A DNA stretch of 64,000 nt from Zhongshania aliphaticivorans. Its GTDB lineage: Bacteria; Pseudomonadota; Gammaproteobacteria; Pseudomonadales; Spongiibacteraceae. The stretch is taken from positions 62,001 through 126,000 of the forward strand of contig NZ_CACSIJ010000001.1 of NCBI RefSeq assembly GCF_902705855.1. Reading direction: 5' to 3'. Positions 26,041 to 50,562 of the stretch are shown one piece after another. A program made the translations under genes and the position numbers. Under the pieces are notes generated by a model that made no database searches, was not told the DNA's origin, and saw only the letters and a program-made list of their open reading frames with translations. Every line of letters begins with the position of its first letter. Positions within the stretch are counted from its first letter, which is position 1.

Positions 26041-27714
26041 TTAGGGATTATCTGGTAACACCCGCGCCAATATGGCTTGAACATCCGCGCACTCGGGCAA
26101 ACAACCGTATATCGCCTGCCCCCCACTCAAGCGTGAGCGAATAAATGCTTCTGCAATAGCGCTTGGCGCCGACTCAATCAGCAGCGAGGCTTGCATCGTT
26201 AAAGCCAGCTGCTCAATTAAATAACGGGCACGAAACTCAAGGTTACTGGTTTTTGCAAAAGTCTCCTTAAGACTATTCACCGCATTATCTAGCAATACAT
26301 TGCGCCCAGCAGTTTTAACCAGCTCCACAAACCAACGATCTAATACCGCCGGCGCTTTCTGCAATGCCCGCAATACGTCTAGGGCCTGAATATTGCCCGA
26401 GCCTTCCCAAATCGCATTGATCGGTGCTTCGCGATAGAGCCTTGGCATAATACAATTTTCAATGACGCCGTTTCCGCCCAAACACTCCATTGCCTCATAG
26501 GCGTGTGCGGGGGTGCGCTTGCAAATCCAAAACTTACCGACAGCGGTGCCTAGGCGCATCAACAATTGCTCAGCGGGGTCGTCGTCATTATCTAAAGCCT
26601 TCGCCATGCGCATAGTCAGCGCAAGCGAGCCTTCTACCTCAAGCTGCAAATCTGCCAGTACATTTTGCATTAGTGCTTGGTCGATTAATCGTGCGCCGAA
26701 GGACGAGCGCTGGCGCGCATGATTGACCGCCTGCACAACAGCTTGGCGTTGCCCCGCTGTTGAACCGACCATACAGTCGAAACGCGTTAATGCCACCATC
26801 TCGATAATAGCGGCCACACCACGCCCTTCTTCACCTACCATCCAGCCTTGAGCTTGACGCAACTCTAGCTCTGAGGATGCATTGGACACATTACCCATTT
26901 TATTTTTTAGCCGTTGCACGTACAGACCATTCTTTTGCCCATCCTCTCGCCAACGCGGTACCAAAAAGCAACTCAAACCACCAGGGGCCTGCGCCAGCAT
27001 TAAAAAGGCATCACACATTGGTGCCGACAAAAACCATTTATGGCCATTAATTGTGTAAAGCGCGCCATTACCAGAGTCATTCAGCGGCTCTGCGACGGTG
27101 GTATTTGCGCGCACATCTGAGCCACCCTGCTTTTCCGTCATCCCCATTCCGATGGTGACCGCAGCCTTCTCAAAATAAGGCACATTCTCTGGCTGATACG
27201 CCGTGTTTAAAATTTTAGGTAGCCAGATTTCCGCCAAACGTGGGCTCAATTTGATCGTCGGCACCGAGGCAAACGTCATTGTTAGCGGGCAACCATGACC
27301 AGCATCAATTTGAGACTGCATATAACTCAGCGCAGCTCGCTTAAGATGGGCATTCTTCACATTTGGCTGCCACGGCCCTGAATGGATACCTTCGGTCAGC
27401 GCCATATTCATTAATTGATGATAGGCGGGATGAAATTTAACTAGGTCTACACGGTGGCCAAAGCGGTCGTGACTCTCAAACTGGGGTTTGTGTTCATTGG
27501 CGTCAAAACCCCATTGAATTACGTCGGCGCGGCCGCAGCGCTCACCGTAGGCAATGAGTTGCGCGGTATCATTCACATCATAGTGGCTAAGCACTTCTTG
27601 TAGTACGTAGTCACTAGCGTACACATTGTAATTTTCCAAGGCAGAGGATTGATTAAATACCTGATGGGTTTCTGCACTAAAATGCAACTCGGAACTAGCT
27701 TGATCAACAGACAT
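26041..27714 (-). CDS. Acyl-CoA dehydrogenase family protein, AidB-like
   Basis: A 557-residue FAD flavoprotein of the AidB branch. Visible: GMGMTEKQGGSDVRANTT (the acyl-CoA dehydrogenase signature in its AidB form), HKWFLSAPMCDAFLMLAQAPGG, and the C-terminal ECLGGNGVIEN and REAPINAIWEGSGNIQALDVLRAL with the catalytic Glu region. E. coli AidB belongs to the adaptive response to alkylation and binds DNA; many relatives are simply acyl-CoA dehydrogenases, and the substrate here is open. ATG 27714 follows AAGGTGGG. It is preceded by a TetR gene 24 bases away, probably in one operon. Confidence 0.88.
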   Translation of the reverse strand: MSVDQASSELHFSAETHQVFNQSSALENYNVYASDYVLQEVLSHYDVNDTAQLIAYGERCGRADVIQWGFDANEHKPQFESHDRFGHRVDLVKFHPAYHQLMNMALTEGIHSGPWQPNVKNAHLKRAALSYMQSQIDAGHGCPLTMTFASVPTIKLSPRLAEIWLPKILNTAYQPENVPYFEKAAVTIGMGMTEKQGGSDVRANTTVAEPLNDSGNGALYTINGHKWFLSAPMCDAFLMLAQAPGGLSCFLVPRWREDGQKNGLYVQRLKNKMGNVSNASSELELRQAQGWMVGEEGRGVAAIIEMVALTRFDCMVGSTAGQRQAVVQAVNHARQRSSFGARLIDQALMQNVLADLQLEVEGSLALTMRMAKALDNDDDPAEQLLMRLGTAVGKFWICKRTPAHAYEAMECLGGNGVIENCIMPRLYREAPINAIWEGSGNIQALDVLRALQKAPAVLDRWFVELVKTAGRNVLLDNAVNSLKETFAKTSNLEFRARYLIEQLALTMQASLLIESAPSAIAEAFIRSRLSGGQAIYGCLPECADVQAILARVLPDNP

Positions 27715-27738: not shown

Positions 27739-28344
27739 CTACGGTTTAACGGTCACACCAATTGCTCTCAAACAAAAATCGCGTAAAGCAGCCGTTGTTA
27801 TTTCATTACAGCCCAGGTGATCTAGCGGCCCCAATAAGCTTTCTGCCATTGCACCCACCAGTGCCGCGGCAGACAGCGACGGTATTTGCTCCTGCAATAC
27901 GCCACTTTCTACGCCTTCAACAATCAAGGCCTCAAACAACGCAGAATAGGTTCTTCGGTATTGTAAGCGCGCGACATCAACCGCCGGATCAACCGGCTCG
28001 GCTATGAGTGCCCATGCCAGCTTAGGGGCTGCGAATGCCCGCTGCGCAAAAGTTTCTGCCGCCGCCGCTAAGCGCGCCGCAACCGAATCATCAAGCGATA
28101 ACGCGGCCTTAACCGCCTCAACCTCCCGAATGGTTGCACGACGAAACACCTCGGTACTCAATTCATCTTTATTACTAAAATAGCGATACACCGTCCCGAC
28201 GCCGACCCCAGCTGCGGACGCAACCGCCTGTATCGTGAGTGCTGCAAAGCCACCCTCTCTCACCAATGATTCCGCTGCGTGAAGCAGGCCCGACTTTTGT
28301 GCAAGCTTACGCTGGGTAACCATCGGGGTTTCGCGATATGCCAT
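27739..28344 (-). CDS. TetR/AcrR family transcriptional regulator
   Basis: A 201-residue regulator with an N-terminal helix-turn-helix: LLHAAESLVREGGFAALTIQ, then AVASAAGVGVGTVYRYFSNKDEL. The C-terminal half is a helical ligand-binding domain. I chose ATG 28344 (MAYRETPMVTQRK) because CTCC on the plus strand gives a GGAG 5 bases upstream, and because the alternative start at 28377 lies in the centre of a 44-bp palindrome that must be the operator. It probably represses itself and the downstream AidB-like gene, with an acyl-CoA or fatty acid as a likely inducer (inference). Confidence 0.88.
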   Translation of the reverse strand: MAYRETPMVTQRKLAQKSGLLHAAESLVREGGFAALTIQAVASAAGVGVGTVYRYFSNKDELSTEVFRRATIREVEAVKAALSLDDSVAARLAAAAETFAQRAFAAPKLAWALIAEPVDPAVDVARLQYRRTYSALFEALIVEGVESGVLQEQIPSLSAAALVGAMAESLLGPLDHLGCNEITTAALRDFCLRAIGVTVKP

Positions 28345-28354
28345 AGGGACTCCG

Positions 28355-28398
28355 TCTTGATCAAACAAGTGAATCATGATTCACTTGTTTGATCAAGA
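28355..28398. promoter_or_regulatory. 44-bp perfect palindrome, probable TetR operator
   Basis: Positions 28355-28376 are the exact reverse complement of 28377-28398. The core is TGAATCATGATTCA, flanked on both sides by CAAACAAG/CTTGTTTG and ended by TTGATC/GATCAA. It ends 11 bases before the tetR ATG and covers the region where promoter and leader should lie, so it is most likely an autoregulatory operator, large enough for two TetR dimers. It is also able to form a cruciform or a strong mRNA hairpin. Confidence 0.85.
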
Positions 28399-28433: not shown

Positions 28434-28460
28434 AAAAAGGCGGCCGAAGCCGCCTTTTTT
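28434..28460 (-). terminator. Rho-independent terminator of the suc operon
   Basis: AAAAAGGCGGC (28434-28444), loop CGAA, GCCGCCTTTTT (28449-28459). It lies 18 bases after the sucD stop, with A-run and T-run giving termination in both directions. It ends the sdh-suc transcript. Confidence 0.88.
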
Positions 28461-41610: not shown

Positions 41611-41615
41611 GACGT

Positions 41616-41643
41616 AAAAAAGGCCGCTTATGCGGCCTTTTTT
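41616..41643 (+). terminator. Rho-independent terminator of gltA
   Basis: AAAAAAGGCCGC (41616-41627), loop TTAT, GCGGCCTTTTTT (41632-41643), starting 6 bases after the gltA stop. The symmetric A/T flanks make it usable by the convergent lipoprotein gene as well. Confidence 0.92.
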
Positions 41644-41684
41644 AATTCCACTGTTAATTCTATATCTCAGATCAAACATCAAAA

Positions 41685-48481: not shown

Positions 48482-50562
48482 TTCCCCTCGTCTATATGAT
48501 TTTCAATTATTTGTTGGAATAAATTTCGCAATCGATTTTCTACTGCAAGACGCCCATCTAACTGATAACGCGCTGACAAATACCCCCACCCCTCTCCTAG
48601 CACCAGCGCACGAACCGCCAACTCCGCATCGGCATAAGCCTGCAAATTCAGACCATGACACATACGCGTTAAACTTGCCGCAGCCTGTTCAAAAAACAAT
48701 TCACGACGACAATAACGCTGCACCACAATAAAATCTGCATCCAAGCCAGAGATGCAAACAGGCTTAAGGGCAGATAAAGCAACGAGCACATCAGCACTGA
48801 TTTGTTTATGAGTATGACGAACCGTCAACGTTACATTTTGCAACAGCGCTTGTTGCATAGTTTTAAAACTTAATTCCATTTCGTCAGAAAGCGCTTTGGC
48901 AACAATTAAAGAATAAGCACCGCTAGATGTATCTCGCTTACTACCTAGCCATAAGGCTTCAAATCCATTCTGCAACCAAAACGGAATAACATCTGATGAA
49001 GCAGCAAAACTAGATGATAAATACGCACAGTGATTTTCGTCAGCAAATTGTTCTGCCGCTTGCAACAGGCGCCGCCCTATTCCTTGACGCCGGGACTCCG
49101 ACACCACAGCTATACGATTTACTCTATAACTACTATTTTGCCCATAACGCCCATCGGCATTGATATGTGCAAGTCGTTGAGCGACTAAATGCCCTTTAGG
49201 CCTACGCTGCCCCGCAATAATGGCTGTAGTTAAATCTGTGCTCAAACCACCTTCCGGAATCAACTGGCAAACGCCCACTACACAGTGCCCGCACTCGGCC
49301 ACAATAATGACGCTCGACGAATCAAGCATATACTGCAAATCGCGGGGCGAGGTTTGATAATGCGCTTGCACCAGTAAACCAAATACCTGCGCAAGAATGT
49401 CATCCTGTGCCAAATCATCTCTCTGTAGCACTCTAACTTTAGGATCGACAATTCCGTCAGGCACCAATGGCTCTGCGCTTAATAAAAAAGCCTCATTTAG
49501 ACATTGCTCAAGTGGGTCATCTCCCGCCCACCGCAGCGGCTCTCGCAACGCGATCCGACGCCACTGCGGACGCTCACGATTTAATATTTCTTTAAATCGA
49601 ATATCAAAGCCTCGCCCACTTCCCTCGTAACCATGTACTGTCGTCGCAAACACAATTCTAGGGTGCTGTAATAGCTCATATAAGAGACCGACGGCGATAC
49701 TCGCCGCTTCATCGACTAATATTAAATCCCAGCTATAATCTGCAATAAGTTCGAACGCAGCTAAGAAGGTAAATTCGCAATCCTTGAAACGAAAGCTAGA
49801 CGCTAGCATCTCTCCGTCAGGCAGCAATTGTTGAATTTGTCTAAAGGCAGCATCAACGGAATGTATATTTGTGGCGGTAATCGCTATACGTTTACATTTA
49901 CCTTCACGCAACAAGCTTGCTGCCGCGATTCCCAGTGCAGATGTCTTCCCACGGCCGCGATCTGATCTGATAACTAAAGGACGTCTTGATCTACCACTCA
50001 CAACGCGCACAATCGCATCGACCGTCGCCTGCTGATCAATACTTGGCAAAACTCGCTTCCAAGGAACAGGTTTTAAAAACGGAAGCGGCTCTACAAAATG
50101 AGTCTCAAAGTGCTGCTGGTGTTCGAAACGATATACCCCAGTAAAACTGGCCACCTTTGTTAAAAACCGCTGCAAGAAAAGCGATGTAGTATTGTCAGCT
50201 ACGGCATCAGAGTTTGCTTGAAAGTAGGCTGGCCATTCATCAAATACTGGGCACAATATAATCAAAACACCACCCGCAACTAGGGTTCCTGCAGCAGCAA
50301 GCCAATCATCCACTGCCTGCGCAGAATAGGCATCGATAAGAACTGCACTAAACTCCTGACCTAGGCTAGATTTAGCAATACTCGGCGTAATATTTCGAAT
50401 AGGGGTTGTTGCCAGTAACAATGATTTTTGATTTAGGATATCGCAGTTAGCAAGCTGAGTTCGGCCCCACGCTTGCGGCCCACTTAAAAACACAAGGTAG
50501 CGATGGCCGTTATTTTCGCCCACAGCACAGAGCTGCTGAATAAAATCATTCAGCACTGTCAT
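48478..50562 (-). CDS. tmcA: tRNA(Met) cytidine acetyltransferase
   Basis: Acetylates cytidine 34 of elongator tRNA-Met using acetyl-CoA and ATP. 694 residues from ATG 50562. Domains: N-terminal RNA-binding/DUF1726 region, helicase core with Walker A RSDRGRGKTSALG (about 192-204), VDEAASI in place of a DEAD box, and HGYEGSGRGF; then a GNAT domain with acetyl-CoA loop SESRRQGIGRRLL. The C-terminal tail is the tRNA-binding region. A start at 50700 would add about 46 residues overlapping the neighbouring gene and is rejected. Confidence 0.92.
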   Translation of the reverse strand: MTVLNDFIQQLCAVGENNGHRYLVFLSGPQAWGRTQLANCDILNQKSLLLATTPIRNITPSIAKSSLGQEFSAVLIDAYSAQAVDDWLAAAGTLVAGGVLIILCPVFDEWPAYFQANSDAVADNTTSLFLQRFLTKVASFTGVYRFEHQQHFETHFVEPLPFLKPVPWKRVLPSIDQQATVDAIVRVVSGRSRRPLVIRSDRGRGKTSALGIAAASLLREGKCKRIAITATNIHSVDAAFRQIQQLLPDGEMLASSFRFKDCEFTFLAAFELIADYSWDLILVDEAASIAVGLLYELLQHPRIVFATTVHGYEGSGRGFDIRFKEILNRERPQWRRIALREPLRWAGDDPLEQCLNEAFLLSAEPLVPDGIVDPKVRVLQRDDLAQDDILAQVFGLLVQAHYQTSPRDLQYMLDSSSVIIVAECGHCVVGVCQLIPEGGLSTDLTTAIIAGQRRPKGHLVAQRLAHINADGRYGQNSSYRVNRIAVVSESRRQGIGRRLLQAAEQFADENHCAYLSSSFAASSDVIPFWLQNGFEALWLGSKRDTSSGAYSLIVAKALSDEMELSFKTMQQALLQNVTLTVRHTHKQISADVLVALSALKPVCISGLDADFIVVQRYCRRELFFEQAAASLTRMCHGLNLQAYADAELAVRALVLGEGWGYLSARYQLDGRLAVENRLRNLFQQIIENHIDEGK

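Follow-up and report, generated by a model that had tools for sequence, protein, structure and literature searches.

The window, by which we mean the whole 64-kb stretch of DNA analysed here, carries on its minus strand a tetR gene (27739-28344; 201 aa from the ATG at 28344) whose product contains the TetR_N and TetR_C_24 domains (PF00440 and PF17932), the helix-turn-helix profile PF00440 being matched at 7.6e-16 with 58.1 bits against a cut-off of 24. The closest named relatives are from Zhongshania, with 94% identity to Z. marina. On the same strand, 24 bp past the tetR stop codon, begins the gene of an AidB-like acyl-CoA dehydrogenase (26041-27714; 557 aa from the ATG at 27714) that matches the AidB_N profile at 1.6e-57, and the next minus-strand frame of at least 100 aa past aidB is one that we take, by eye, to be htpG-like. 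Upstream of tetR lie genes that we likewise presume to be sucCD-like, and a terminator-like hairpin (28434-28459, minus strand) stands 3' of them, between them and the tetR promoter. Since this hairpin ends the sucCD-like genes, tetR probably needs a promoter of its own. A second hairpin of the window, TAAAAAAGGCCGCTTATGCGGCCTTTTTTA at 41615-41644, with a perfect 13-bp stem, a 4-nt loop and A/T flanks, is probably a terminator working in both directions.

Ahead of tetR, at 28355-28398, direct reading of the letters gives TCTTGATCAAACAAGTGAATCATGATTCACTTGTTTGATCAAGA, a stretch identical to its own reverse complement, whose two halves meet between 28376 and 28377. This 44-bp perfect palindrome is, as the earlier note had it, the largest in the window, the runner-up without a spacer being the 20-bp GCCAGTTTGGCCAAACTGGC at 1957-1976. 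Under a base-composition model about 4e-9 palindromes of 44 bp are expected, and a chance origin was rejected on this ground. The feature is also unique in the 3.95-Mb genome: the inner 40 bp and AGTGAATCATGATTCACT, each searched with up to three mismatches, and RTGAAYNNNNRTTCAY, searched exactly, have a single match each, which is the palindrome itself. A search of the genome for the operator core as a way to other targets, proposed in the same note, returned this one strong site and, for the 18-bp core at up to three mismatches, no further targets, so that a wider regulon in the window's own genome was rejected.

At up to two mismatches the shorter, 16-bp core has two further places in this genome, in L055, where it falls within a 423-aa open frame, and in L056. 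The latter place, near position 1498 (G000:C15:19097), reads GTGAATCATAATTCCC, carries neither a frame of at least 80 aa nor an Rfam match, and recurs in four genomes, the others being G005, G007 and G012. The same search at two mismatches misses three genomes of the genus (G013, G019 and G020) despite their regulator, and finds single places in three genomes of the family that are without it. A sequence two mismatches from the core, GTCAATCATGATTTAC, is present in multiple copies in G012 (contigs C4, C7, C22 and C28) and in G017 (contig C24), and these copies are perhaps part of a repeated or mobile element.

The palindrome appears to contain the tetR promoter. The predicted -35 element TTGATC (28391-28396, minus strand) lies in its left arm, and the predicted -10 element TTCACT (28368-28373, minus strand), preceded by TG at 28376-28375, forms an extended -10 of the sequence TGATTCACT in the right core; the 17-bp spacer between the two hexamers runs across the palindrome centre. 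The -10 position would place the start of transcription at approximately 28361 (minus strand). TTCACT is a weak -10, and a scan for strict consensus promoters detected none. The placement agrees with the comparative data, as at least four of six bases match TTGACA 17 bp ahead of TTCACT in 41 of the 79 loci carrying the site, whereas for any one of the 15 other spacings tested 0-9 of the 79 do so. In all six loci that keep only a second site, described below, a TTGACC element, 17 bp and TT[TA]ACT are retained, a pattern which was written after inspection of these six loci.

The longest tetR frame opens at an ATG within the palindrome (28377), exactly where the earlier note had warned that a longest-frame call would wrongly put the start. 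The 16 TetR proteins of the genus, that of the window and its 15 orthologues, all align from residue 1 encoded at ATG 28344 (MAYRET; MVYRET in L015), and in 8 of the 16 loci there is no in-frame ATG, GTG or TTG between the equivalent of this start and the preceding stop. A Shine-Dalgarno-like GGAG (28350-28353, minus strand) can be read 5 nt ahead of ATG 28344. As the predicted promoter lies within the palindrome, ATG 28377 is upstream of the likely transcript start, and the longer start would therefore be untranscribed. Judged from this alignment, 28344 is the true start of tetR, and the correction made in the earlier note stands.

The regulator is present in 16 of the 18 genomes of the genus, the window's own included, and all 16 loci have an operator-like site ahead of tetR, centred 26-36 bp before the ATG. 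With the bases numbered outwards from the centre, no variation is seen on either side at positions 5-7 and 13 and almost none at 1, 4, 9 and 10, whereas positions 2, 3 and 8 are variable, chiefly on the left side. The innermost part constitutes a core, TGAATCATGATTCA (28370-28383, unstranded), which has the form of the 14-bp operators reported for the promoter of PA3973 of Pseudomonas aeruginosa (PMC9736018) and which was not found in the limited collection of literature searched. At positions 1-8 the two arms are identical in 110 of 128 comparisons against a shuffle mean of 108.5, hardly above what conservation alone gives. At positions 9-16 they are identical in 97 of 128 against 82.2, a value reached by 2 of 10,000 shuffles, and at positions 17-22 in 27 of 96 against 25.2, which is no excess; the shuffles ignore the relatedness of the 16 loci. 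Parsimony on the tree of the 16 proteins gives the same picture, with eight double changes at positions 9-16, six of them to the same letter, against 2.1 expected, and six against 5.3 at positions 17-22, although these numbers are small and the expectation is a simple one. Because the arms co-vary at positions 9-16 and not at 17-22, the conserved operator would measure about 30-32 bp, the span of excess symmetry being 16 bp on each side of the centre (28361-28392, unstranded).

The extra arm length belongs to the window species itself: the outer 6 bp are the predicted -35 box on one side and a mirror copy of it on the other, and the mirror copy is complete only here. The arms are imperfect in 8 of the 16 genus loci, where the perfect run outwards from position 4 stops at positions 3-11. 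The proposal that the 44-bp palindrome is a TetR operator has thus to be divided: the comparison across genus and order supports an operator, but the conserved operator is not the full 44 bp, positions 17-22, which on the promoter side hold the predicted -35, showing no excess symmetry across the genus.

Of 390 genomes sampled from the order, 78 have the regulator at E up to 1e-25, and 65 of the 66 match rows outside the genus were analysed, the one left out (G338:C16:8540-9055) being partial with an internal stop. The score matrix was derived from the genus sites, which makes the genus scores circular; the order loci, themselves mutually related, are the test. The site cut of 2.4 is the maximum over 116,640 control positions downstream in the same loci, and 63 of the 65 loci have at least one site above it (61 at a cut of 10), the exceptions without a site ahead of tetR being L085 and L156. 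A single scored site is present in 33 loci and two sites in 30 (26 at a cut of 5 and 17 at a cut of 10), while in the genus no second site exceeds 2.4 (0 of 16 loci). The cut is not clean, as window position 48793 (2.6), L019:1167 (5.1) and L021:1538 (3.9) also pass it, and since such scores turn up elsewhere the weakest second sites are uncertain.

The spacing of paired sites is narrow, 26-29 bp from centre to centre in 26 of the 30 loci (28 bp in 11, 29 in six, 27 in six and 26 in three), and in 30 loci a site is centred 11 bp before the ATG. In a number of these relatives (L113, L115, L120, L129, L130, L147 and other order loci) the stretch 10-50 bp before the ATG has the second operator directly adjoining the tetR start, so that a bound repressor would mask the ribosome-binding region as well. 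Compared with the first site, the second resembles its reverse complement more than its direct copy in 18 of the 30 loci, less in eight and equally in four, the loci being related; this tendency gives a weak clue to the relation between the two layouts. In L129 the two 16-bp sites are exact reverse complements.

Downstream of tetR and in the same orientation, an AidB homologue is present in all 16 genus loci and in 61 of 65 order loci, although it is only 32% identical in L154 and L155 and lies 489 bp away in L081 and L084. The four order loci without it are L125, where the genes are divergent, L085, where aidB precedes tetR, L156, with no aidB in the 1.3 kb downstream, and L158, with none in the stretch examined. 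Two of these rearrangements show the site moving with the operon: between the divergent genes of L125 there are two sites 28 bp apart, and in L085 (G291) no site precedes tetR, but one scoring 26.2 stands upstream of aidB, and 29 bp beyond it there is a weak second site that, at 1.1, stays under the cut. The regulator is absent at E 1e-15 from 5 of 21 genomes of the family, all of which keep aidB, and none of these five has a site above 1.9 within 3.1-3.6 kb around that gene. A scan of genome contigs gave 20 loci, of which three are on the same contigs as the genus loci L003, L006 and L007 and 17 are distant relatives, with 28-44% identity along a portion of the protein; tblastn at 1e-8 found no aidB at these 17, and two of them, L029 and L032, have one position each above 2.4.

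We consider it very probable that the adjacent TetR protein has the palindrome as its operator, that the tetR-aidB promoter lies inside it, and that the repressor blocks both genes. The comparison of genomes supports the identity of the operator, its linkage to regulator and operon, the position of the promoter and the start codon; for binding and for repression of the AidB-like gene the experimental support is that from P. aeruginosa, on whose analogy both may be expected here. A repressor dimer, or a pair of dimers, would occupy the palindrome and mask both promoter elements, the -35 TTGATC and the extended -10, thereby shutting off transcription of its own gene and of the AidB-like dehydrogenase gene; release would presumably be by a ligand, perhaps an acyl-CoA. 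The suggestions of the earlier note that a TetR protein acts at the palindrome and controls tetR and the AidB-like gene jointly have therefore both gained support, the former from the site in all 16 genus and 63 of 65 order loci, its movement with the operon and its absence from the five regulator-less genomes, and the latter from the conserved same-strand aidB, the two rearranged genomes and the repression of PA3972 by PA3973 as reported in that study (PMC9736018). The promoter within the palindrome, the relatives with two sites and the P. aeruginosa counterpart go beyond what that note contained.

How many dimers the operator takes is a separate question. The earlier note suggested that two TetR dimers fill it; in a refined form of this idea they would bind as a dimer of dimers of the QacR/CprB type, the long arms having been selected for contacts of the second dimer. 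Binding by two dimers is plausible by analogy, and we put this account of the arms at a little under an even chance. The identity of arm positions 9-16 beyond chance and their paired changes speak for it, with the reservation that the shuffles ignore relatedness and the tree counts are small, as do the two sites above the cut in 30 of 65 relatives outside the genus. The 30-32 bp span fits the 22-32 bp of dimer-of-dimers operators and exceeds the 15-17 bp of a single dimer, in the parts of the source available (PMC4150764), but a single dimer with additional minor-groove contacts could span the same length. The perfect run is short in half of the genus loci, and offset sub-dyads, looked for as the mark of two dimers, found no support, the outer 16-mers alone reaching 5 of 8.

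A second and rather doubtful account is that the arms, chiefly their outermost 6 bp, were made alike by template-switch (quasipalindrome) copying and not by selection for binding. Template switching is reported to repair the arms of inverted repeats or to generate them (PMC8794818; PMC8604942), and several features of the outer arms agree with it. Positions 17-22 have no excess of symmetry or of double changes in the genus, and only in the window species does the outer right arm match the left fully, a match for which the right-flank base frequencies of the other species at positions 18-22 give a product of 0.0004. On the left the outer arm is constrained by the -35 box, and this accounts for the smaller number of changes there than on the free right side (22 against 41). 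In L003, the nearest relative, the outer right arm departs from that of the window through a cluster of substitutions and a length difference of one base. However, the direction of change in the outer arm is not polarisable, 16 species offer 16 chances for one long run, and selection for repressor contacts accounts equally well for positions 9-16. The co-varying arms could reflect either process, and they offer a modest set of natural data for asking whether the symmetry of an operator is maintained via selection or via copying between arms. If copying were the answer, a mutational mechanism, and not only selection, would have shaped the symmetry of an operator.

The two accounts can be joined in a more specific and, in our judgement, improbable history, in which the two operators of many relatives were replaced in Zhongshania by one palindrome whose arms grew and changed together via template-switch copying, the -35 box being mirrored into a perfect 44-bp operator that two dimers can fill; the reverse-complement tendency of the paired sites hints weakly at such a history. 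That the feature acts in RNA, as a tetR-leader hairpin or terminator, is very unlikely: the single strand of the palindrome folds strongly (-20.6 kcal/mol, z -8.6, DNA parameters), its centre is loop-like in that positions 2-3 on the left side vary more than 4-7, and several two-site relatives, such as L129 and L130, could form a single long hairpin, imperfectly paired, that takes in both sites, but with the predicted promoter inside the palindrome a transcript would hold the right arm only, no T-run follows, only 10 of the 31 mismatched arm cells at positions 9-16 would be G-U pairs, and the invariant bases at 4-7 are those of the operators bound by PA3973 (PMC9736018).

Under the preferred reading, a repressor acting at an operator that contains its own promoter, the analysis establishes where operator, promoter and start codon lie for a family of regulators present in about one fifth of the order genomes sampled and links the Zhongshania regulator to an experimentally studied system of P. 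aeruginosa. It also provides a clear example of a longest-frame gene call that starts inside a promoter.

PA3973, as described in the available part of the work of Kotecka et al. 2022 (PMC9736018), is a self-associating TetR protein of P. aeruginosa that binds its own promoter by ChIP-seq and EMSA. In that promoter TGAATCCGGATTCA and TGAAGCGTGATTCA, with 11 bp between them, overlie the predicted -10; a fragment without the first site and part of the second was not bound (PMC9736018). Loss of PA3973 raises the expression of PA3972, which is AidB-like, and of PA3971; in some media, growth of the double mutant of the latter two was slower when hydroxylamine or hydroxyurea was present, and more than 300 sites are reported for the regulator (PMC9736018). 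The window TetR is a relative of PA3973 and a probable orthologue. As in P. aeruginosa, the regulator gene comes first in its cluster with the gene of an AidB-like acyl-CoA dehydrogenase adjoining it, and, as in the promoter reported there, a TGAA-N6-TTCA palindrome lies over the predicted -10 (PMC9736018). The hundreds of ChIP sites of PA3973 differ from the one strong site found in the window genome (PMC9736018).

Among 25 genomes of one genus, a single one has the exact two-site arrangement of the PA3973 promoter, 11 bp apart; it lies in L171, ahead of a tetR-aidB cluster whose TetR and AidB proteins are 46% and 56% identical to those of the window. The P. aeruginosa ChIP motif SAAGRNMTGAACG is matched at best at 9 of 13 positions in the palindrome region and at 10 of 13 in the L171 promoter. 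In L171 the TetR and AidB-like genes are followed by two further genes, which from the gene order are presumably thioesterase-like and AMP-nucleosidase-like. P. aeruginosa also has a thioesterase gene and amn after aidB, unlike the window, where aidB is followed by the presumed htpG-like gene.

Among acyl-CoA-responsive TetR regulators, FadR of Bacillus offers a likeness in that, of the NCBIfam models, the window TetR matches that of FadR best, but the 44.7 bits obtained lie far under the equivalog cut-off of 200. The family profile matches 49 PDB sequences, which include chains of a fatty acid metabolism regulator protein (3whb, 4.8e-9). The available text on TfmR of Xanthomonas (PMC6637906) contains nothing on AidB. 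The operators of QacR, CprB, CgmR and Ms6564 measure 28, 22, 32 and 31 bp, and several dimer-of-dimers operators are not palindromic, according to the accessible part of the source (PMC4150764); the 30-32 bp of excess symmetry in the window fall inside this range, although the regulators and targets are different. The switch described here is thus of a known kind, studied in P. aeruginosa, with a new operator layout: where the PA3973 promoter has two tandem 14-bp sites 11 bp apart (PMC9736018), Zhongshania has, with no second site, one extended palindrome.
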